The notes beneath the pieces are model-generated. The model was given only the letters and a program-made list of their open reading frames with translations, did not search any database and was not told the DNA's origin. From positions 1-20,290 of the IMG/VR virus record IMGVR_UViG_3300042467_002622: 20,290 nt of DNA; one strand, 5' to 3'. Shown piece after piece: positions 3,913-18,362 of the stretch. The position numbers were made by a program, and so were the translations under genes. This stretch comes from a virus. The number at the start of each line of letters is the position of its first letter. The first letter of the stretch is position 1.

Positions 3913-4245
3913 ATGGGAACTTCGGCACAGGGACTTACGTTCACCTTCGGTGGCGCCGCCGTCACCGTCACTTCCGTCCAGGTCAATGACACTCAAGACC
4001 TCCTCGACGCGACCCACCTCGGCGTGGCCCCGAACGGCCGGCGGATCTTCGTGGGCGGTTTTGCGACCGACCGAGAGGTGCAGATCGACTACATCAGTTC
4101 GACGATCCTCACCGCCGGCACGTCCGGCGCCATGTCGATCTCCGGCCCAATGTCGTTCAGCGGCAATGCGACGATTTCGTCGGCGTCCCTCGGCGGCTCG
4201 GTCGGCGACTTCGTGCGAGGCTCCGCGACCTTCCGGCTCGCCTGA
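3913..4245 (+). CDS. Tail tube protein-like, first copy
   Basis: A 110-residue protein with ATG 3913 after a near-perfect Shine-Dalgarno. It is almost entirely beta: it starts with QGLTFTFGGAAVTVTSVQV, has a loop with DLLDATHLGVAPNGRRIFVGG, and finishes with GDFVRGSATFRLA. This matches the small double-sheet tube subunit fold (lambda gpV N-terminal domain, Hcp-like), although at about half the length of a classic siphophage tail tube protein. The next gene encodes a related protein (VGELVRGTLRFTLT at the matching end), so this looks like a tandem duplication. The position between tail terminator and chaperone genes fits a tube role. Which copy is the major tube subunit is not clear; the strong ribosome site favours this one. 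Confidence 0.72.
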   Translation: MGTSAQGLTFTFGGAAVTVTSVQVNDTQDLLDATHLGVAPNGRRIFVGGFATDREVQIDYISSTILTAGTSGAMSISGPMSFSGNATISSASLGGSVGDFVRGSATFRLA

Positions 4246-4260
4246 CGACCGGAGGGTCCG

Positions 4261-4638
4261 ATGGCGATCACCGCGCACGGCGCGACGTTTGTCTTTACCG
4301 GCACGCGCGGAGAGATTAGGGCAAACGTCACGGCACTGTCTGTCACGAACCCGACCGCAGAGGTCGTTGACATGACTGGGCCGTCTGACCCCCTTGGGTT
4401 TCGCATCATGGTGCCGACGGGCGACGTGTCCGGTGGCAGCATTGACGTCGAGTATCTGGCCACCGCGAACGGCGGGGTTCCGGACGGCTTTGTGTCTGAC
4501 TACGGCACGCTGACGTTCGATACCCCGGTGATGTCCGTCTCGCGAAGAGTGGTGCTTGCCAGCGCTGACAAGGAGGCGCGTGTTGGCGAACTCGTTCGCG
4601 GCACGCTTCGCTTCACGCTCACGGACTACGGGGGCTAG
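4261..4638 (+). CDS. Tail tube protein-like, second copy
   Basis: A 125-residue protein with ATG 4261 after a G-rich site (CGGAGGG). It shares with the 110-residue product at 3913-4245 a TxFxFxG start, a central loop (EVVDMTGPSDPLGFRIMVP against DLLDATHLGVAPNGRRIFV) and a matching end (VGELVRGTLRFTLT). It has an extra loop around residues 65-85, with a Gly/Asn-rich segment (ATANGGVPDGF). Function is inferred as a second tube, neck-tube or tip-tube subunit. Paralogous tube proteins are known in phages with separate tube and tube-end components, but nothing in this sequence decides which it is. Confidence 0.7.
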   Translation: MAITAHGATFVFTGTRGEIRANVTALSVTNPTAEVVDMTGPSDPLGFRIMVPTGDVSGGSIDVEYLATANGGVPDGFVSDYGTLTFDTPVMSVSRRVVLASADKEARVGELVRGTLRFTLTDYGG

Positions 4639-5364: not shown

Positions 5365-5382
5365 TAGAAAAGGGTCATGCTG

Positions 5383-5757
5383 ATGGCTTTGAGCAAGGCT
5401 GCGATTCTGGCGGCGAAGGACGTTCGGTTGAGCGACGCGATCAAGGTCCCGGAGTGGGGCGGCGACGTTTACGTCAAGACGCTCTCCGGCCTGGAGCGGG
5501 ACGCCTTCGAGGAGTCCTACGCCGAACAGAAAATGAAGTCGTTCCGCGTCCGCTTCCTCACGCTGACGCTGTGCGACGACTCCGGCGAGCGGCTGTTTGC
5601 CGACACGGACACCGACCTCCTCGGCAAGAAGTCGAGCGTGGTCATCAACCGGCTGTTCGAGAAGGCCTGGAGCCACAACGCCCTGACGTCGGAGGCCGTG
5701 GAAAGCCTGGGAAAAGATTCACCGACCGACCAGAGCGGAGGTTCTACTTCCGCCTAG
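5383..5757 (+). CDS. Tail assembly chaperone, short form (lambda gpG-like)
   Basis: A 124-residue protein. ATG 5383 is chosen over ATG 5377 because it lies eight bases after AAAAGGG; 5377 is too close. The sequence (MALSKAAILAAKDVRL, VPEWGGDVYVKTLSG, RDAFEESYAE, FRVRFLTLTLCDDSGERLF) is a standard tail assembly chaperone N-terminal domain. In the reading of the short form, translation ends at TAG 5755-5757. At the slippery heptamer 5709-5715, a -1 shift leads into the frame ending at 6014 and gives a longer fusion of 210 residues. The protein keeps the tape measure from aggregating and helps the tube assemble around it. It is directly upstream of the tape measure gene, as in lambda. Confidence 0.86.
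   Translation: MALSKAAILAAKDVRLSDAIKVPEWGGDVYVKTLSGLERDAFEESYAEQKMKSFRVRFLTLTLCDDSGERLFADTDTDLLGKKSSVVINRLFEKAWSHNALTSEAVESLGKDSPTDQSGGSTSA
5709..5715 (+). promoter_or_regulatory. Programmed -1 frameshift slippery site (GGGAAAA)
   Basis: The heptamer fits X XXY YYZ in frame (CTG GGA AAA GAT) and differs in only the last base from the GGGAAAG used by lambda G/GT. A -1 shift here continues into the frame that is open to 6014, whose product has the T-type chaperone motifs. Both frames overlap and no start codon with a clear ribosome site exists for the downstream frame. Confidence 0.85.
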
Positions 5758-6014
5758 CGTTGGCGCTGGGCATGACGGTGAAGCGGCTCCTGACGGAGTG
5801 CGACTCGGAGGAGTTGAGCGAGTGGTACGCCTACGATCAGCGGTGGCCGCTGCCTGACCCCTGGTGGCAGACGGCGCGGCTGTGTCGGACGGTGATGGCG
5901 GCGAGCGGAAACTACAAGAGGTTGCCGGAAGAAAACATCTTCATCCCGTCGCAGGTGAGGCCGTATCAGTCGACGAACGAGATGTTTGCGGAACTACAGA
6001 AACTTCAAGGATGA
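5715..6014 (+). CDS. Tail assembly chaperone, frameshift extension (lambda gpT-like)
   Basis: This frame is entered by a -1 shift at 5709-5715 and adds 99 residues to the first 111 of the short form, giving a fusion of 210. The extension carries the T-type pattern: LALALGMTVKRLLTECDSEE, then LSEWYAYDQRWPLPDPWW and a helix with TARLCRTVMAA, ending with a segment likely to bind the tube (NEMFAELQKLQG). If translated alone it would have to begin at ATG 5772, which has no ribosome site, so the fusion is favoured. Its stop (TGA 6012-6014) lies four bases before the tape measure ATG. The fusion is needed in small amounts and bridges the tape measure and the tube subunit in known phages. Confidence 0.82.
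   Translation, partial: RFTDRPERRFYFRLALALGMTVKRLLTECDSEELSEWYAYDQRWPLPDPWWQTARLCRTVMAASGNYKRLPEENIFIPSQVRPYQSTNEMFAELQKLQG
5735..5753 (+). promoter_or_regulatory. Candidate hairpin downstream of the slippery site
   Basis: GCGGAGG (5735-5741) can pair with CTTCCGC (5747-5753) through seven pairs, one of them G-U, with a five-base loop. It starts 19 bases after the slippery site, farther than the usual 5-9 bases for a stimulator, so its effect on frameshifting is uncertain. Confidence 0.35.
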
Positions 6015-6017
6015 AGA

Positions 6018-9000
6018 ATGGCCCTGCTCGGCAAAATCTCCGCCGTCCTGACTGCGAACACGCAGGACTTCACCCGCCGGATTGGCGAGTCCCGGCGTGA
6101 ACTGCAGGACTTCGCGCGCCAGGCCAGAGGCATCCAGTTCAACCTCAACACTAGGGCGCTCGACGGCACGCTGACGCAGTTGCAGCGGTTTCAGCGGACG
6201 CTGCGAGAAATCCAGCAACTCCAGTCCCGCGGCATTGACGCCGGCCTGCCGAATGTCGGCCGCCTGCGCGATCAGTTTCGCGCCTTTGAGGACATCGGCA
6301 GGCCGCTGACTGCCCTCAAGAACCAGATCGAGGGCCTGTCATCGTCAATTCAGGCGGAACTCTACCCCGAACTGGAGAAGATTCAGGCTGGGTTTCGCAA
6401 CTTTTATCGCGATCTTGATACCGGCGCCGCAGCGTTCGACAGGTCGGCGGCTCGCGTCGACAACCTTCAGCGGAGGCTTCAGGCGCTGTCTAGGGTGACG
6501 GCTGCCGTTAGAGATGTCGGCGGGCTGGCGAGAACGCTAGATGCAGACAACACAGGCGCGTCTTTCTTTCAGGGGCGGGCGAGAGAGTCGCTTCAGCGCA
6601 CCATTTCGCTTCGCGGGCAGGCGCAGAATATCCCGGCCGCGCTTCGCGGCGACGTCTTTGCAGACCTGTCTGCCCAGGCCGAGGAAAACGCCCAGAGAAT
6701 TGAGCAGGCCGTGGCGCGGGTGGCCAGGGCGCAGTTGCGTATTGCCAACGGAGGCTCGGGCGGCGGGCCGACATCAAGAAACATCGAGGCCAGAGGGCGA
6801 GCGCAGGCAGAGTTGGACTCGCTCACAAGACGGCAGAATGCCATCAATCTCTCGTTTCAGCGAGAGATGGAGTCCGCCGCGATTCAGCAGATCGTCTCGC
6901 CAGGCGCCGAGCGGCAGGTTGCATCGCTTCGCGAGCGGCTCGGAAGTCTGGCGACAGAACTTCGGGCCATCAACGGACAGCAGTTCAACGGCCTGATCGC
7001 CGGCGCGGCCGCCGTCGTGGAGCAGTTCAATCGCGGAACTGCGTCTGCCAGGGAGGCGAAGCAAGCAGTGGACGCGCTGGCAGCGTCCCTAAATGCGGCA
7101 AACACGTCTCGCGGACTGCAGCAGCAGACGGAGTCGCTCCTCTTTACGCCGCGAGAGGCATCTCGTCGGCGCATTCAGTCGGACTACGACAGGCAGGTCG
7201 CCGGCCTTGCGCCAGATGACCCGCAGCGACGCGGTGCTGGAATCCAGAGGTCAGTCAATCTGTACAGAGAGCAACTGAACGCAGACGGAATCCCGCGCGC
7301 CATGGAAGCCGCGACGGCGGCTCGATCGCTTGGGACTGCAGATGGCGTTCGCGACGCCGAGAGGCTTCTGGAGATCCAGCGGCAAATCAACGCCGAACTG
7401 CGCAGATCGGCCAACCTGAATCAGAACAGGCAGTACGACCAGGCGCAGGAGAGGCTCCGCAGGGTGCAGTTGCTGCTCCAGGAGCAAGTTTTCGTCGAAG
7501 GCAGAATCACAGATCAAGTCGAGATTCGCAACGCTGCGCGAAGGCAGGAGGAGTTGTTCCTCGAATCCTCCGGCGGCCGCGCAGAGCAACTGTCGCAGGG
7601 GGCGCGTGACGCGGCGGCCAATGTCTCGGTTGCAAGGCAATTTCGCGGGCAAATTGCGTCTGGTGCGGCCAGAATTCAGATCTCTGCAGAGATCGACCGC
7701 GTCACAAACAGCATCATCGAACTGCAGCGGCAAATGGCCAGGGTTGCCGCCAGCGACCTAGGCTTCGACGAGCGCGTCGCGGAACTCGACAGGCTCGACA
7801 ATGAAATCCGACAGTCGACTAACGGTCTCGCGGCGTTCGTGGCAGACCGCAGCGGCGGCGCGTTCAACACGAGGCAAATTGAGGCCTCGATGGGCCGCGC
7901 TCGCAATCAATCTGGGTCTTTGTCTGGCACTGGGGTTTTGACGGCTCAACTGGCGGCCCAGCAGGCCTTGTTTGCGATCGATGACTTCATCTCGTCGACC
8001 GGAGGCTTTGAGTACAAGATCCGCGCAATCGGAAACAACATCACGCAACTCGGCTTGCTTCTTGGGCAGTCTGGCCTCATTGCAGGGCTGACTGCGACAA
8101 CCGGGCTTTTTGCCGGCCTTGCGGTTGTGATCGGCGGTCAAGCCCTGTCGGCCATCATCAAGTGGTACAACGCCGGCGTCACTGCGGAGGATCAAGCAAA
8201 AGCCCTCAACGACGCCCTGCAAAAGCAAAAGTCTCTGGCGGAAGAACTGGCCGCGTCCTTTGAGTCGCTCGGCAAGTCGATCGCCGATGGTGCATTCTCG
8301 GCTTCTGCCAAGTCCGCTCGCGACTTTGCGCTGTCGCTTGAAGAGGTTGCCAAGAAGCAGCAGTTGCTCCGCGAGGAGCAGTTCGGCGCTCTCGACCCGG
8401 CATCTGTTCAACAAAAAAGCATAGCAACATCAATTGACAAGCGGCTCCAGGCCGCCACCGATGCCGGCCAGATTGTGGCCCTGACGCAGGCGCAAACTAG
8501 GGCGCGCGTCGCCGCCAGGGGCGCCGCCAGAACAGCCGCCGGCAGGTCTCCAAATTTTGACGACGCGATAAGTGCAGTTGGCGCTGGCACGCAAAACCGC
8601 GCGGAAAGCAACCGAAGGCTTCTTGGAGCGCAACTTGACTACTGGGGTGGAGGCATTTCGTCGTTGTTCAATGGGCTTGGGTTTGCGGCCCGGCTCGCTG
8701 GGCGCGCCAATGCCCCAATGCCAGAGTCGCAGGATCTTCGCAGGCAGCGGCTTGAGGCAGCCAGAGGCGATCGCGTCGCCGAGCGGAATGCAGTTCAGAC
8801 CGAAATCGACAGGCTTCGCCCACTTGCAGAGCAGGACATTGGTCTTTTCACGACACTGACAGGCACGTCCGAGGCTGTCGCGAACGCCTCTCGCGAATTT
8901 TCACGGCTCCAACTTGTGCTGATTGCGCTCAACGAGTCAGCCTCGCAGGACGACATTTCGCGATTTTTCAGGTCGGCGCGTGAGGGCGGCTTGGCCCTTG

Positions 9001-10388
9001 AGGCCGCTCAAAACCAAGCAGCCGAGGCCATTCGCGCTGGGATCCCGTCGGCGCTCGCGCTTTCTGGGTACATCGACAGGCTCGCTGGAGAGATCGACGC
9101 CGCCCAGAAAGAGATCGCGAAAGCGCAGCAGGAGTTTGCGCAGCGTGGCAGCGCCCCGACGCAGGCGGACTTTGACGAACTCAATAGACAGGTGTCGGCC
9201 GCGCAGGCGAGGATTGACCGTGGCCGTGCGGCACGCGAGCAGGCCCAGGCCCGCGCGGCAGAACTTGAGCAGCGACGCATCGTTGATCCGCAGTCAACGC
9301 TTGACGCTCGACGCCAGCGGGCAGAAGCGAATCTTCAGGCGTCGGGCGCGGAGTCCGGCATTATCGCGCGCAGGATCAGAGAACTTGAGGCGCGCCGCGC
9401 GCGGGCCGAGGCGGCTGTCTCGCAGCGGCCGGATAGCGCGTTCGTTCGACGTCGTGCCGATCGCGAGATTTCGGCCATCAACGAGGAGATGAAGGCGATT
9501 GAGGCCGCCACGCTCGGCCTAAAGCGGTTCACAGAGGCACTGGCCCGCGCGTCAGCGGAGGCCGAAAGCAACCTGCAGGCTGCAAGGCAGCGCGATGACG
9601 ACATTCGCCGGCAAAGCCTCGCGCCGGGCCGCGGGGCGGCCTTGCCGACCCAGGCAGAGCGAGACCGCGCAAGGAGGAATGTAGAGGAGCAGCAAGTAGC
9701 AAACAGGGCTGTTGAGCAGGCCGTTGCTCAAGAGCGAGACAGGCTTGAGCGGCTCGCGCAAGATCCGCAAAACCCACTCAGCGAAACTTTTCGTCGGCTT
9801 CGAGAGATCGACGAGCAGTTGTCGTCTGGTGCAGGCACTGAACGGGAGAGGCAAAGGCTCATCGAGGAGCGCCGCTCGCTTCAGCAGCGGGTCGACAGTC
9901 AGATCGACGAGTCGCCAGCGGTCCGCGCCGCGAGAGACAACAGCACAAGAATCGAGCAGCGCCAGACGGCCGAGGACCGCGGCCGCGATCTCGCCATGAC
10001 GCCGGCGCAGCGGGCAGCAAGAGAGTTCGGGCAGCAGGCCCGCGACCTGACCGCCGAAATGAATCGCATCAACGCGCCAAATGCCGTCAGAGGCGCGAAC
10101 ATGAGCCGCCTCGCTCTTGAGGCCGCCCAGCAAGTTGCCCCGATGGTCATGGGCTTTCGCGAGGAGCGTCTCAACGCCGCGCTCCAGGGTCCGTCGCGGG
10201 CAGCGCTCAATGTGGCCGACGTCAACACGATGGAGGGTCAGCGGGAACTCAACCGACTTCTCCGCGGTGACGACGCCAACCGCGACGTCAATCTCGTCGA
10301 ACTGCAGAAGCAAACTGAAAAACTTCAGGAAGTCGTGGACGCTATCCGCGATCAGGATCGGGCCGCTGTTGTCGAACTTCGAGGGTAA
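6018..10388 (+). CDS. Tail tape measure protein
   Basis: A 1456-residue protein, by far the largest gene, with ATG 6018 after AAGGATGA. It begins with LGKISAVLTANTQDFTRRIG, the usual tape measure opening in which residues of a helix contact the chaperone. It is dominated by Gln/Arg/Ala/Glu-rich coiled coil, with a hydrophobic segment at about residues 675-717 (LGLLLGQSGLIAGLTATTG and LAVVIGGQALSAIIKWY), as seen in proteins that insert into the host membrane during DNA ejection. The last 400 residues return to charged coiled coil. The length should set the tail length; by the usual rule of about 0.15 nm per residue this would be near 200 nm, which is inference. No lysozyme or peptidase motif was seen. 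Confidence 0.92.
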   Translation: MALLGKISAVLTANTQDFTRRIGESRRELQDFARQARGIQFNLNTRALDGTLTQLQRFQRTLREIQQLQSRGIDAGLPNVGRLRDQFRAFEDIGRPLTALKNQIEGLSSSIQAELYPELEKIQAGFRNFYRDLDTGAAAFDRSAARVDNLQRRLQALSRVTAAVRDVGGLARTLDADNTGASFFQGRARESLQRTISLRGQAQNIPAALRGDVFADLSAQAEENAQRIEQAVARVARAQLRIANGGSGGGPTSRNIEARGRAQAELDSLTRRQNAINLSFQREMESAAIQQIVSPGAERQVASLRERLGSLATELRAINGQQFNGLIAGAAAVVEQFNRGTASAREAKQAVDALAASLNAANTSRGLQQQTESLLFTPREASRRRIQSDYDRQVAGLAPDDPQRRGAGIQRSVNLYREQLNADGIPRAMEAATAARSLGTADGVRDAERLLEIQRQINAELRRSANLNQNRQYDQAQERLRRVQLLLQEQVFVEGRITDQVEIRNAARRQEELFLESSGGRAEQLSQGARDAAANVSVARQFRGQIASGAARIQISAEIDRVTNSIIELQRQMARVAASDLGFDERVAELDRLDNEIRQSTNGLAAFVADRSGGAFNTRQIEASMGRARNQSGSLSGTGVLTAQLAAQQALFAIDDFISSTGGFEYKIRAIGNNITQLGLLLGQSGLIAGLTATTGLFAGLAVVIGGQALSAIIKWYNAGVTAEDQAKALNDALQKQKSLAEELAASFESLGKSIADGAFSASAKSARDFALSLEEVAKKQQLLREEQFGALDPASVQQKSIATSIDKRLQAATDAGQIVALTQAQTRARVAARGAARTAAGRSPNFDDAISAVGAGTQNRAESNRRLLGAQLDYWGGGISSLFNGLGFAARLAGRANAPMPESQDLRRQRLEAARGDRVAERNAVQTEIDRLRPLAEQDIGLFTTLTGTSEAVANASREFSRLQLVLIALNESASQDDISRFFRSAREGGLALEAAQNQAAEAIRAGIPSALALSGYIDRLAGEIDAAQKEIAKAQQEFAQRGSAPTQADFDELNRQVSAAQARIDRGRAAREQAQARAAELEQRRIVDPQSTLDARRQRAEANLQASGAESGIIARRIRELEARRARAEAAVSQRPDSAFVRRRADREISAINEEMKAIEAATLGLKRFTEALARASAEAESNLQAARQRDDDIRRQSLAPGRGAALPTQAERDRARRNVEEQQVANRAVEQAVAQERDRLERLAQDPQNPLSETFRRLREIDEQLSSGAGTERERQRLIEERRSLQQRVDSQIDESPAVRAARDNSTRIEQRQTAEDRGRDLAMTPAQRAAREFGQQARDLTAEMNRINAPNAVRGANMSRLALEAAQQVAPMVMGFREERLNAALQGPSRAALNVADVNTMEGQRELNRLLRGDDANRDVNLVELQKQTEKLQEVVDAIRDQDRAAVVELRG

Positions 10389-12161: not shown

Positions 12162-15100
12162 TGCTCTTTGGCTGCACTAACTGCTGCAGTTGCACCAAAT
12201 GCACTGACGGCGCCCCAAAACGACTGATCGTCTCGCTGGACTACCCTCCAGGCAGCGGCGAGACGCTTCTGGCGGACGACGCGAACCCGCCGGCCTACGG
12301 CGCGGTCACGACCAACTGCGAGCCTGTTGGGAGCGAGTTCCCGATCATCTCCGTCACGCTGGACAACGCTGGCGACGGCTACACCACTGCCCCTACGCTG
12401 ACGCCAACGCCATCGGGCGCTGTCCTTGTAACGGAACTTCGACGGGCGCTTGAGTCCGTCGAGGTGACGGCTGGCGGCTCCGGCTACACCACGACGCCGA
12501 CTGTGTCGATTACAGGCGGCACAAAAGCAACGCAGGCCACGGCCGTGGCGGTCATCAAGGGGGGCGGCACGGCGGCCACGGTGACGGCGGCCGGAGCCGA
12601 CTATACGTCGCCGCCGACGGTGTCCGCCGAAGGCGGAACGGGACTCCAGGCCACTGCGGTCATGTCGGGGTATGTCTACGAAATCACACTTGCCCAGCAG
12701 GGCGACGGCTATACATCAACGCCGACGGTGACGATCACAGGAAGCGCCACGGCGACGGCCACTGTGGCGGACGGGAAAGTCACTGGGATCACAGTCACGG
12801 CGGCCGGATCTGGATACGCCTCTGCGCCGACAGTCACGGTCAGCGGTGGCGGCGGCTCCGGCGCCGCGGCGACCGCAGTGCTGCGGTACAGAGTCTCGTC
12901 TGTAACCGTGCAGTCAGGAGGCAGCGGCTACGGCCTTCAGGCGCCGCTCATCTTTACCGGCGGCGGCGGCAGCGGCGCGGCCGGAACGCTGCAGGTTTCT
13001 GGCAGCGTTGACGAGGTCATCGTTACCGACGGCGGCGACTACTTCAACCGCCGGCGAACGGACGGAACCAACACGCAGGATTGGCCGACCGTGACGTTCT
13101 CTGGCGGCGGCGGCAGCGGCGCACAGGCGACTGCATACTTCGGCGCTGGCCCGATCAACGCGGTGTCCGTATGGAGCGGCGGCGCCTACGAGGAGCCGCC
13201 GACGCTGGCGTTTTCTGGTGGCGGCGGCAGCGGCGCAGAGGCAACGGCCTACATCGCCTACCAAAGCACCAACGAGATTGGCATCGACATCGGCAAAGCC
13301 GACTGCACGGCCCGCATCGAGACGGCGTTTTGCACCAGTACTGACAGCGAGGCATACCCACCGGCGCCGTGCGATGGCTGTGGGGGCCGCTTGTATCTAG
13401 GCCCAGGCACGACTGAACCGCCTACGGACGCAAGGTACGGCGAAAGGCTCCAAACCATCGTCATACCGCTGACGTCGGCCGCAGCCGGCTCGCCGTCAGG
13501 TCGGGCGGACGTCGGCGGGAGCCAATACCGCAGCGCAGAGGACGGAGACTTCACGCCTGGGGGCGAGTACATCTATGTCTATGTAGGTCAGGTGTGGCGG
13601 GTGGCCGGCTACATCTTTGTTCACGACGAGAGAATGTACGTCAGGCGGTTTTTTAGTCGCGTGCCGCCAACTGGAAACTGGATCGTTCGCAACCAACCAG
13701 CGTCGGCAACCAACGCCATCCTGTCTCCTGTACTGAAGCAGGGCGAAGACCTCGCCGGCCAGCCATTCTGGTGGATAGAGTCATTCAGCGTTGTGTCAGG
13801 CGGCGAGAATATGGTGGCCGGGGCTGGCGGCAACGAACTATTGTCGCCGGATGATGACGTAAACTATCCGTATCCATACGAGTCTTTATCTGCCGTCAAC
13901 GCGGTGTACACCTACTCCACGCCGGTGGTCAATGCGTTTGGCAATGCCACGCTGTTCTCGTCGCCGCCGCAGTTTGCGTACACGTTCTCGCCAGTCGGCA
14001 ACGGCAAGGACTACACGCTGACTGGAATCTCTATTTCTAGCGCCGGCAGCGGAGGCCCGTCGGACGGCCAGTATTACACGACTCTGTCGTTCTCCACCGG
14101 CTACCCATCACCGTCGCCGACTATTTCGTTTACCGTTTCCGGCGGCAGTGTTCAGTCTGTGTCCATCGACTCCGCGGGCACCGTTCGAGGCGGCGCCTCG
14201 TTGCAGTCGGTCGAACTGCCGGAGCAGGCGGAGTTTGCATATCCGCCGCGAATCTTGATCGGAAGAAGCACCCTCCAGGCAACTACAACGTACAGTGAGC
14301 CGACAGTGACGGCCTCGGCGCCGCCGGGGTCGGCCACCTTCTCGGTTACGCTGGACGAAGGCGTCGACGCCAATGGCAATCCATACTGGTTCGTCACGGC
14401 GGTCACGATCATTGACGGAGGGTCAGGCTACCTGGAGCCTGTAGGGCTTGATTTCTCCGTTTCCGGGCCAAACGGAGTCGAGGCGATTCCGGCCGTTGTC
14501 GTGGCATCGCCGCCTGGGCGGGAGGAGCCGACGCTGTCCATCGGCGGGTCTGGCGACTTTACGATTGCCTACACCTACGAATCGTCGTGCGACTGCTGGG
14601 TTATCTCCGATGTTACGGTGGTCGACGGCGGGAGCGGATACACAAACGGGCAGTCGGCGACCATCATTCTTGGCGAAGAAGACAACGAGATCACGGCGGC
14701 CGATCTTGTCATCAACACCGTGCTGGAGGAGCCGACAGTCACGGCGACGGTTTCTGGCGGATCGGGCGCGCAACTCACGGTGACGCTGGAGTACATCGCG
14801 TACCTCAACGTATGGTCGATCCTCTCGATCTCTATCGCCTCTGCCGGAACCGGCTATACGGACGGCGCGGAGATCGTATTTTCCGGCGGCGACCAGGGGG
14901 AATCTTACGCCTACGCGACAATCACAACCGACCAGGACGGTGCCATCATCGGCGTGTCGATCGGCAATGCCGGAGCGTTCTACGACGACACGGGGCAGGC
15001 ATCGTCGGTGACGGTGAACGCCGCCGGCGCGTACTACAAGCAGCGCACGGAACTAGAGACTATATCCATCGTCTCTGGTGGGCGGTATTTCAATCGCGTC

Positions 15101-15367
15101 ATCACCGTCACCGAGACGCCGCTGCCGGATGTTGAGTGCGACGGAGAGGTCAGCGAGGAGGCCGGCTGGGAGTTGCTTCGCTACAAGCCGCCCTACGCCT
15201 ACCCGCTGACTGATGATGAGGTTTGGCAAACAAAAGAATACGAGGTCGGCGAGCAGTACGAGTCTGGAGTTCAGACGGAGTGCTGGATGAATATTTCGAC
15301 CCTGTATGACTTCACCAGAGTCCGCCGCTGCGGCTTTCCGACCGTGACGCTCCGGTTCGAGAAATGA
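12161..15367 (+). CDS. Large GGSGYT-repeat tail/fibre protein with Cys-rich N-terminus
   Basis: A 1068-residue protein; the frame is open farther upstream, but ATG 12161 overlaps the previous stop and gives the Cys-rich start. The first 14 residues hold five Cys (C5, C8, C9, C11, C14; CTNCCSCTKC), a possible metal-binding or disulphide knot. From about residue 60 onward the sequence is built of short repeats of the type V-x-v-x-G-G-S-G-Y-T-s-x-P-T-V-x-i-s-G-G-G-G-S-G-A-x-A-T-A, with copies near residues 71, 105, 144, 181, 215, 253, 291 and 340 and a second set in the last 350 residues. A nonrepetitive region lies between, with four more Cys around 382-407 (CDGCGG). Such repeats are common in phage fibres and surface proteins. 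A receptor-binding or baseplate role is inferred from position and composition. No peptidase motif seen. Confidence 0.78.
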   Translation: MLFGCTNCCSCTKCTDGAPKRLIVSLDYPPGSGETLLADDANPPAYGAVTTNCEPVGSEFPIISVTLDNAGDGYTTAPTLTPTPSGAVLVTELRRALESVEVTAGGSGYTTTPTVSITGGTKATQATAVAVIKGGGTAATVTAAGADYTSPPTVSAEGGTGLQATAVMSGYVYEITLAQQGDGYTSTPTVTITGSATATATVADGKVTGITVTAAGSGYASAPTVTVSGGGGSGAAATAVLRYRVSSVTVQSGGSGYGLQAPLIFTGGGGSGAAGTLQVSGSVDEVIVTDGGDYFNRRRTDGTNTQDWPTVTFSGGGGSGAQATAYFGAGPINAVSVWSGGAYEEPPTLAFSGGGGSGAEATAYIAYQSTNEIGIDIGKADCTARIETAFCTSTDSEAYPPAPCDGCGGRLYLGPGTTEPPTDARYGERLQTIVIPLTSAAAGSPSGRADVGGSQYRSAEDGDFTPGGEYIYVYVGQVWRVAGYIFVHDERMYVRRFFSRVPPTGNWIVRNQPASATNAILSPVLKQGEDLAGQPFWWIESFSVVSGGENMVAGAGGNELLSPDDDVNYPYPYESLSAVNAVYTYSTPVVNAFGNATLFSSPPQFAYTFSPVGNGKDYTLTGISISSAGSGGPSDGQYYTTLSFSTGYPSPSPTISFTVSGGSVQSVSIDSAGTVRGGASLQSVELPEQAEFAYPPRILIGRSTLQATTTYSEPTVTASAPPGSATFSVTLDEGVDANGNPYWFVTAVTIIDGGSGYLEPVGLDFSVSGPNGVEAIPAVVVASPPGREEPTLSIGGSGDFTIAYTYESSCDCWVISDVTVVDGGSGYTNGQSATIILGEEDNEITAADLVINTVLEEPTVTATVSGGSGAQLTVTLEYIAYLNVWSILSISIASAGTGYTDGAEIVFSGGDQGESYAYATITTDQDGAIIGVSIGNAGAFYDDTGQASSVTVNAAGAYYKQRTELETISIVSGGRYFNRVITVTETPLPDVECDGEVSEEAGWELLRYKPPYAYPLTDDEVWQTKEYEVGEQYESGVQTECWMNISTLYDFTRVRRCGFPTVTLRFEK
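12962..13236 (+). repeat. Three identical 17-base direct repeats inside the GGSGYT gene
   Basis: The 17-mer GGCGGCGGCAGCGGCGC occurs at 12962-12978, 13106-13122 and 13220-13236, with spacings of 144 and 114 bases, both multiples of three. It codes for the GGGSGA turn between strands. A related but diverged copy is at 12846-12863. The identity at the DNA level suggests recent recombination or duplication of repeat units. Confidence 0.7.
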
Positions 15368-15958: not shown

Positions 15959-16165
15959 ATGACGCACAGCGGCGTCGGCTACTGGATGGACAGGATCTCG
16001 GCGGATGCCAAGGCGGAACTAGAAGAGATCAAGCGGCAGTATCGCTCCGGCGCCATCAAGGCGCGGCGTCGCACGCTCGCAAGGGCGATTTCACGGCACC
16101 TACGAGAGCGTGGCATCTGCTCGATCGGTCACTACGGAGTCGAGGCATGGCTGCAAAAGGGCTGA
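15959..16165 (+). CDS. Small basic helical protein, possible helix-turn-helix
   Basis: A 68-residue protein. ATG 15959 is the first usable start in this frame after the previous gene; the site before it is weak, so the start is uncertain. It is rich in Arg and Lys and predicted helical: a first helix with DAKAELEEIKRQYRSG, a second (RTLARAISRHLRERG), and an end with GHYGVEAWLQKG. The arrangement of two helices, a short turn and a third helix with a Trp could be a small DNA-binding domain. The last 19 bases overlap the following gene, whose ATG lies within it. I do not know a named family. Its place before the phosphoesterase suggests it belongs to the same operon. Confidence 0.55.
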   Translation: MTHSGVGYWMDRISADAKAELEEIKRQYRSGAIKARRRTLARAISRHLRERGICSIGHYGVEAWLQKG

Positions 16166-17304
16166 AGGCCGCGATCATCTCGTCGCTGCCGGCAGAGACG
16201 CCGGCCGCTGACGCCGAGCAGGTGACGCAGCGGCAGGACGGCGACACGCTGGAGGCAAAGTCAACGTCTCGGCGGATCAAGACCGTCGAGGACTTGCTGC
16301 GGCACATCGAAGCCGACATGACGCGGTACGAGGTGGCGGCGAGCGAGGCCACGAAATGGGAGTGCGGCGACGGGTCCGGGGGCGCCCTCGAACTCCATCG
16401 CGTCTTCGTCCGGCTCAAGCCGAAGGCCGGTCCGGGCGTCCGCGAGTGCGTCGAGGCGATGATTGCGGCGGCCTCCAAAGATCTGCGTCGCAAGGGCGTC
16501 GCGAAGCCGGCCAAGAGAAGCGGCCTCTGGCAGGTGGTCGTCGTGTCGGACGTTCACTTCGGGAACTACGCCTACCACGGTACGACCGGCGGCGGCAACT
16601 ACGACCTTCACATCGCCGAGAAGGCCGTGCGGCGGGCGTCTGGCGAACTCCTCGCCGTCGGCGACGCCATGAAGCCGGCCAGGAGAACGATCGCGTTCCT
16701 CGGTGACTTGCTGCACTACGACAACCCGCGCGGCCAGACGACCTCGGGGACGCAACTGGAGCGGGACGGCCGCCTGCAGAAGATGCTGCAGGTCGGCTGG
16801 GACTGCCTGCTGGAGATCGTCGAGCGGTCGGCCGAGAAGGCGCCGACGGACGTTCTCGTCGTCAACGGGAACCATGACGAAACCTTAAGTTGGGCCTTTC
16901 AGCGCGTGCTGCTGGAACGGTTTCGCAACGACGGCCGCGTCGCCGTGTCGGAGGCGTGGACCGGCCGGCAGTACGCCACGCACGGCAAGAACCTGCTGGG
17001 CTTCGCCCACGGCCACAAGGCCAAGCGGAAGTTGGGGCAGATCATGGCGCTGGAGCAGCCGCGGCACTGGAGCCACGCGGTCTGCCGCGAGTGGCACACC
17101 GGCCACTACCACTCCCAGGCCGCGGAGTGGCAGCGACCCATCGAGACGATCGACGGCGTCATCGTGCGGACGGCCCCGGCCCTCTGCCCGCCGGACGACT
17201 GGCACTCGGAGAACGGCTTCATCGGGTCGCGGCGGGCGATGGAGACGTTCGTCTATCGGCCCGAGGGCGGGCTGGTGTCCATGCACGTTGCGGGGGCCGA
17301 CTGA
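16147..17304 (+). CDS. Calcineurin-like metallophosphoesterase
   Basis: A 385-residue protein with ATG 16147 after a GAGG site, overlapping the previous gene by 19 bases. The catalytic domain has the full metal-binding set of the calcineurin-like superfamily: D135-x-H137 (SDVHFG), GD187 (LGDLLHYD), GNHD (N242, H243, D244), H288 (FAHGHK) and GHYH (H320, H322). The N-terminal 120 residues form a separate domain with TVEDLLRHIEADMTRYEVAA, a WECG turn and LELHRVFVRLKPK, an arrangement typical of phage members of the family and likely a winged-helix or nucleic-acid-binding part. The enzyme probably hydrolyses phosphodiester bonds of DNA or nucleotides, as for Mre11/SbcD relatives, but the substrate is not proven. 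It precedes the dCMP deaminase gene directly. Confidence 0.88.
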   Translation: MAAKGLKAAIISSLPAETPAADAEQVTQRQDGDTLEAKSTSRRIKTVEDLLRHIEADMTRYEVAASEATKWECGDGSGGALELHRVFVRLKPKAGPGVRECVEAMIAAASKDLRRKGVAKPAKRSGLWQVVVVSDVHFGNYAYHGTTGGGNYDLHIAEKAVRRASGELLAVGDAMKPARRTIAFLGDLLHYDNPRGQTTSGTQLERDGRLQKMLQVGWDCLLEIVERSAEKAPTDVLVVNGNHDETLSWAFQRVLLERFRNDGRVAVSEAWTGRQYATHGKNLLGFAHGHKAKRKLGQIMALEQPRHWSHAVCREWHTGHYHSQAAEWQRPIETIDGVIVRTAPALCPPDDWHSENGFIGSRRAMETFVYRPEGGLVSMHVAGAD

Positions 17305-17808
17305 ATGGCTACGCTGTCCCACAATACGCCGGCCGATTGGCTCCGCGTTGCCTGCCAGGAGGCGGCCGCCGGCAGTGACGACCCGCACACCCAGAACGGC
17401 GCCGTGCTGGTGCCGAAGGCCGCCGCCTACGTCTGCATCGGCGTCAATCGAGTGCCGCGAGGCGTGTGGGCGGCGCCAGATCGGCTCGCGCGGCCGGAGA
17501 AGTATCAGTACATCGAACACGCGGAGCGGGCCGCGATCTACAACGCCGCGCGGGTGGGCACGCCGACGCTGGGAGCGACGCTCTACTGCCCATGGTTTGC
17601 CTGCATGGACTGCGCCAGGGCGATCATCATGGCCGGAGTGTCCGAGGTCGTCGGCCATGTCCGGCCGCGGGCGGCCACGCCGGAGCGGTGGACGGCGAGC
17701 ATCGTCAAGGCCGAGGCCATGCTCCGCGAGGCGAACGTGTCGATGCGGTGGCTCGCGGAGCCGCTGGGGGTGACGATCCGATTCGACGGCGAGGAGATGG
17801 AACTGTGA
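17305..17808 (+). CDS. Deoxycytidylate (dCMP) deaminase
   Basis: A 167-residue protein; ATG 17305 follows the previous stop without a gap. It shows the zinc deaminase motifs: H72-A-E74 (IEHAERAAIYNAA, the zinc ligand His and catalytic Glu) and PWFACMDCARAI with C100 and C103 as the other ligands. The PWxxC form in place of PCxxC is common in phage members. The enzyme converts dCMP to dUMP, the precursor for dTMP, in the cytoplasm. The next gene, a dNMP kinase, overlaps it by four bases (GTGA), so the two act together in nucleotide supply. dCMP rather than cytidine or riboflavin substrate is inferred from motif style and the kinase neighbour. No thymidylate synthase is visible in the window. 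Confidence 0.88.
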   Translation: MATLSHNTPADWLRVACQEAAAGSDDPHTQNGAVLVPKAAAYVCIGVNRVPRGVWAAPDRLARPEKYQYIEHAERAAIYNAARVGTPTLGATLYCPWFACMDCARAIIMAGVSEVVGHVRPRAATPERWTASIVKAEAMLREANVSMRWLAEPLGVTIRFDGEEMEL

Positions 17809-18362
17809 TCATTGGACTCTGCGGGGCGGCCGGGGCGGGGAAGAACACGGTCGCGGAGCGGCTGTGCCTCGAACACAAGTTCGTGCCGCTGGCGTTTGCC
17901 GATCCGCTCTATGCCGCCGTGTCGGCGATCACCGGGCTGACGGTCGAGCAGTTGCAGGACCGCTCTCGGAAGGAGAACACGCTGGGGTGGATCAGTTGCT
18001 CGCCCAGGAAACTCCTCCAGACCCTCGGCACCGACTGGGGCCGGAACATGATCCACCCCGAAATCTGGGTTATGGCGACGATGCAGAAGATCGAAGCCAG
18101 CCCAGAGTTCGACTACTGCCTGACTGACGTCCGTTTCCCCAACGAGGCGGCGGCCATCAAGGCCCGCGGGGGCGTCGTGTGGCGGGTGGTGCGGCCCGGC
18201 TTCGGCGTCCTGGACGGAGACACGGCCAGCCACGAGAGCGAGCGTGGCATCCCCAGCGAGTACGTCGACGACGAGATCGTCAACGCCGCGGGCATCCTGG
18301 GCCTCTGGACCGCCGTCGATGCCGCGATTCGCAGGCTACAGGGCGTTACAATAGCGGTATAG
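17805..18362 (+). CDS. Deoxynucleoside monophosphate kinase
   Basis: A 185-residue protein. GTG 17805 overlaps the deaminase stop as GTGA and places the P-loop at the N-terminus, which is normal for the family; the frame extends upstream but only as shadow coding. The Walker A motif is GAAGAGKNT (residues 7-15). LAFADPLYAAVSAITGL, the KENTLGW segment, SPRKLLQTLGTDWGRNMIHP and LTDVRFPNEAAAIKARGG follow the usual order of phage dNMP kinases (T4 gp1-like), the last being the region of the second catalytic Asp/Arg. It adds a phosphate to dNMPs (dTMP, dGMP or modified forms) in the path to dNTPs. It ends at TAG 18360-18362, inside an inverted repeat. Confidence 0.9.
   Translation: MIIGLCGAAGAGKNTVAERLCLEHKFVPLAFADPLYAAVSAITGLTVEQLQDRSRKENTLGWISCSPRKLLQTLGTDWGRNMIHPEIWVMATMQKIEASPEFDYCLTDVRFPNEAAAIKARGGVVWRVVRPGFGVLDGDTASHESERGIPSEYVDDEIVNAAGILGLWTAVDAAIRRLQGVTIAV

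Follow-up and report, generated by a model that had tools for sequence, protein, structure and literature searches.

Sequence evidence for a lambda-type -1 ribosomal frameshift in the tail-chaperone genes of an uncultured siphovirus

Organization of the tail module

The window, that is, the whole stretch of DNA analysed here, is a virus record of 20,290 bases, and the G/T locus described below, like the tape-measure gene, is located on its + strand. Two overlapping frames, G and T, lie between the major tail and tape-measure genes, both of which are assigned by position only, together with size in the case of the tape measure. The tape-measure gene (6018-10388) is located directly downstream of T and encodes a large protein of 1456 aa, for which Pfam and PHROG searches returned no family match. 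In nearly all relatives, too, a long ORF starts no more than about 11 nt from the T stop. The genes upstream showed matches to head-tail adaptor, neck and tail terminator families, which points to an ordinary long-tailed phage tail module.

Two adjacent small proteins (3913-4245 and 4261-4638) share 31% identity with each other (E 3e-6) and have no family match; from their position, they may be duplicated tail-tube proteins. A protein of about 1050 aa (12206-15367) contains many imperfect repeats of the GSGYTSxPTVTxxGG type, has no Pfam match and is possibly a tail fibre or surface protein. Past the tail module (16147-18362), a weak metallophosphoesterase match, a dCMP deaminase (2.9e-15) and a deoxynucleotide monophosphate kinase (1.9e-14) follow in a row.

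The zero-frame product of the locus (5383-5757, 124 aa) is a gpG-like tail assembly chaperone. It is homologous to annotated tail assembly chaperones and, in particular, matched PHROG 344 (phrog_344, tail assembly chaperone) along almost the entire protein (E 2e-27); the match to Pfam Phage_TAC_1 (TAC_1) was weak (0.14), and no solved structure matching G by sequence was found. A start at 5383 is favoured over one at 5377, with AAGGG located 8 nt upstream and relatives aligning from the Met at 5383 onwards.

The -1 frame (5715-6014, stop at 6012-6014) encodes a gpT-like extension of 99 aa. This part matched Pfam PF06223 (Phage_tail_T, Minor tail protein T) with 26.6 bits against a curated cut-off of 25.9, as did all 10 of the 10 relatives tried, and it also matched phrog_337 (PHROG 337, tail protein) at 1.3e-9. 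The first-pass annotation, made from the sequence alone, had noted T-type motifs in this frame, and the PF06223 match above cut-off bears this out. Read as one chain, G and T give a fusion of 210 aa with the junction ...EAVESLGK/RFTDRPERR....

The slip site and its conservation

The two frames meet at a slippery heptamer, G_GGA_AAA (5709-5715). The zero frame around it reads CTG GGA AAA GAT, with codons at 5707, 5710 and 5713, which places the heptamer in the X_XXY_YYZ register. An earlier reading of a lambda-like GGGAAAA in the right frame, leading into an overlapping -1 frame, is therefore confirmed for both the register at 5709-5715 and the T frame at 5715-6014. GGGAAAA occurs once in the 20-kb window (on the + strand, at 5709-5715), compared with a mean of 1.3 expected by chance; thus, the case rests on the position, frame and conservation of the heptamer and not on its rarity. 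Transcriptional slippage was also considered and is rejected as unlikely, as the runs GGG and AAAA are short. Heptamers that end in AAG work best in E. coli (PMC4066793), and GGGAAAA may therefore be weaker; no efficiency figure for GGGAAAA in E. coli was found in the text of PMC4066793.

Two scans of IMG/VR yielded about a hundred distinct loci containing both frames, and in every distinct relative T lies in the -1 frame of G. The joined appearance of the frames could in principle reflect a sequencing error or a decayed gene, a reading to which the frame change itself lends the sole point in favour. Since every distinct relative shows the -1 relation, across many samples, and both frames are under purifying selection, this reading is refuted by the comparison and retains a negligible probability.

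The form of the heptamer was counted at 99 loci with enough flanking sequence; for 12 of these, the tblastn start shifts the printed register, and the heptamer was read from a separate listing of the loci. All 99 carry a shift-prone heptamer at the same aligned codon: GGGAAAA in 52, GGGGGAA in 25, GGGAAAC in 17 and AAAAAAC in five. GGGAAAA has thus been replaced in 47 of the 99 loci, each time by another shift-prone heptamer and never by a non-shifty sequence. Further, no locus among the 99 has lost a shift-prone heptamer while keeping both frames, the combination that had been named at the outset as evidence against frameshifting. When mapped onto a tree of 54 non-redundant protein rows, from which the junction was left out, these states require at least eight switches, so that the site was rewritten repeatedly, always to a shift-prone heptamer. 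GGGGGAA in particular is recurrent within the family at the codon of GGGAAAA (e.g. at loci L025, L062 and L111). It is fairly probable that the slip site changed several times between GGGAAAA or GGGAAAC and GGGGGAA within one homologous chaperone family; as part of the same reading, the A-site Glu tRNA on GGGGGAA would re-pair with GGA via a G-U pair at the middle position.

More distant homologues fit this pattern. A search of genome contigs for a host gave only distant matches, a Nitrospira MAG with AAAAAAC and Streptomyces phytophilus with GGGAAAC. The Rhodococcus phages REQ1, Jflix2 and Madraxi (L163-L165), which contain a more distant G/T pair, had no canonical heptamer in the part of the sequence that was inspected.

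The constraint on codon choice falls precisely on the slip site. This was assessed in 51 non-redundant loci, which are not mutually independent, so that the figures are given as counts and not as probabilities. The Gly codon at the site is GGA in 29 and GGG in 22 (51 of 51) and never GGC, which accounts for 66% of Gly codons in G. Where Lys is the second codon of the site it is always AAA (18 of 18), compared with a share of 87% for AAG among Lys codons, and the Leu codon before the site ends in G in 50 of 50 cases.

Probable translation of the T frame

One alternative to a fusion is that T is a separate gene, translated from the internal ATG at 5772. This ATG is in frame and is present in 35 of 51 relatives, and some annotated phages indeed give T as a separate gene. 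However, it is replaced by Lys or Arg codons in the other 16, and 12 of the 51 have no ATG, GTG or TTG among the first 26 codons of T. The codons ahead of 5772 are, in addition, conserved as protein: between the site and the ATG (T codons 2-19), the T frame has a pN/pS of 0.30 versus 1.05 in the third frame, which served as a control, and the residues RPER, LA and LG are invariant. The low pN/pS before 5772 and the missing ATG in relatives indicate that ribosomes enter the T frame at the heptamer rather than at 5772. An internal start would also leave the codon constraint at the heptamer unexplained. This alternative is therefore rejected as very unlikely.

What keeps the zero-frame stop, TAG (5755-5757), is the rare Leu codon CTA at 5754-5756 in the T frame. 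Among the 46 loci that lack an early zero-frame stop, 42 have CTA as Leu 14 of T, which creates the TAG, compared with a CTA share of 4.5% among Leu codons later in T. The two loci with CTC at this position have their zero-frame stop further on, by two and six codons. In lineages whose zero-frame stop directly follows the heptamer, Leu 14 is TTA or TTG and the same T frame is kept. The zero-frame tail past the heptamer is otherwise free to vary, the zero-frame reading of the overlap having a pN/pS of 1.10. As the zero-frame stop is kept and the T frame is under selection, both the short and the long product appear, from these sequence patterns, to be selected, and it is the G-T fusion that selection is seen to preserve in the T frame.

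T could also be reached by termination-reinitiation coupling, in which ribosomes stop at the end of G and restart in the T frame. Such coupling is possible in one lineage (L050-L053, L068 and L069), in which ATGATGA spans the zero-frame stop right after GGGAAAA. At this junction, the codons are GAA TGA TGA in the zero frame and ATG ATG in the T frame, so that reinitiation could back up or replace frameshifting there. However, a start codon is missing at the G stop of most lineages, including the window, the T residues upstream of that stop are conserved, and the L050 lineage itself still has the heptamer. Except as a possible backup in that lineage, reinitiation is rejected, and for the family it is still less probable than an internal start.

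Candidate stimulatory elements

A hairpin drawn in the first-pass annotation at 5735-5753 can indeed be formed in the window, with seven pairs and the loop TTCTA, 19 nt past the heptamer. The local 50 nt fold better than shuffled sequences (z -3.4), and 92 nt gave a z of -1.6. The hairpin found no support as a conserved stimulator: in relatives, 63% of its cells are paired, no more than in shuffles, with one two-sided change, and RNAalifold on the alignment of the relatives predicted no pair and, in this search for stem-loops, no consensus downstream structure. It is rejected in that role and is probably incidental, with a lineage-specific role possible.

A Shine-Dalgarno-like GGAGG (5691-5695), located 13 nt before the heptamer, is another possible stimulator. 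GAGG is found at this distance in 48 of 54 non-redundant loci, and the spacing falls inside the range of 6-17 nt upstream of the motif that has been used for stimulatory Shine-Dalgarno elements (PMC4066793). The Glu codon within it is GAG in 47 of 47 cases, the most constrained in codon choice of 49 conserved G columns. As another Glu column is almost as invariant (50 of 51), this evidence is no more than suggestive; the upstream GAGG may be a likelier stimulator than the hairpin.

Proposed mechanism and significance

A -1 slip that yields a short and a longer tail-assembly helper is familiar in tailed phages. The analysis established how the sequence is arranged, to which families its products belong, that relatives conserve both the slip site and the frame, and that selection acts on both products. 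By far the best explanation, in our view, is that this siphovirus tail module uses a programmed -1 ribosomal frameshift of the lambda type, with a probability of about 0.95. That ribosomes slip here, how often they do so, that the upstream GAGG stimulates slippage and what the proteins do are what we infer. The majority of ribosomes would terminate at the TAG of G (5755-5757), which yields the short chaperone. In a minority, the tRNAs for Gly and Lys would move back by one base from GGA AAA to pair with GGG AAA, and translation would go on in the T frame as far as 6014, giving a G-T fusion of 210 aa. If the analogy with lambda holds, the tape-measure protein would be coated by G, and a few G-T copies would recruit the tail-tube protein through their T part.

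For a widespread group of uncultured phages, this reading corrects how one tail gene is annotated: the product would be a 210-aa fusion and not a stray 80-aa gene. The suspicion that annotation can split off the extension was well founded, as T appears as a gene of its own downstream of G in the annotated relatives REQ1, Madraxi and Dryad. Further, the aligned relatives provide four natural slip sites at a single codon, a series which may serve as material for testing bacterial heptamers, GGGGGAA above all. If the proposed switching is true, GGGGGAA would be a working and interchangeable frameshift site in nature.

Comparison with known systems

According to Xu, Hendrix and Duda in 2004, the lambda-type G/GT -1 frameshift is reportedly conserved in long-tailed phages. 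In lambda, G and G-T have a role in bringing the tube protein onto the tape measure, and long-tailed phages conserve the frameshift (PMC5009743). The window resembles lambda in the location of the locus between a major tail gene and a tape measure (here by position), in a G chaperone with a probable G-T fusion (rare in lambda), in the probable GGG AAA slip and in a T-type domain recognised by the Pfam model Minor tail protein T. Unlike the lambda site G_GGA_AAG, the heptamer has A as its last base in the window, with C or a GGGGGAA site in relatives, and the upstream GAGG is preserved in the window family.

Closer counterparts are found in the Streptomyces phages phiSASD1 (gp35/35.1) and Dubu (gp13/14), which have homologous G (33-41% identity) and T (34-36%) and an annotated joined CDS, with GGGAAAC at the homologous codon. 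They differ from the window in this heptamer, in a zero-frame stop immediately after it and in their actinobacterial hosts. Other heptamers are known as well: GGGAAAC and AAAAAAG sites have been reported in Burkholderia phages (PMC3483164), and GGGGGAA, with an upstream GAGG element and a proposed downstream pseudoknot, in gp14A of corynephage phi16 (PMC5506516). In the SEA-PHAGES data analysed with PRFect, GGGGGAA is the only form of the 'fivetwo' motif, and G-U re-pairing is discussed (PMC10885494). Unlike phi16 with its proposed pseudoknot, the window family showed no conserved structure in the stem-loop search. The phi16 and 'fivetwo' sites share GGGGGAA with 25 of the 99 relatives, whereas the window itself has the canonical GGGAAAA. 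Overall, the locus in the window is most probably an ordinary lambda-type tail-chaperone frameshift with nothing outside the known picture, and the one mildly unusual point is the recurrence of GGGGGAA sites in its relatives, a form already reported elsewhere.
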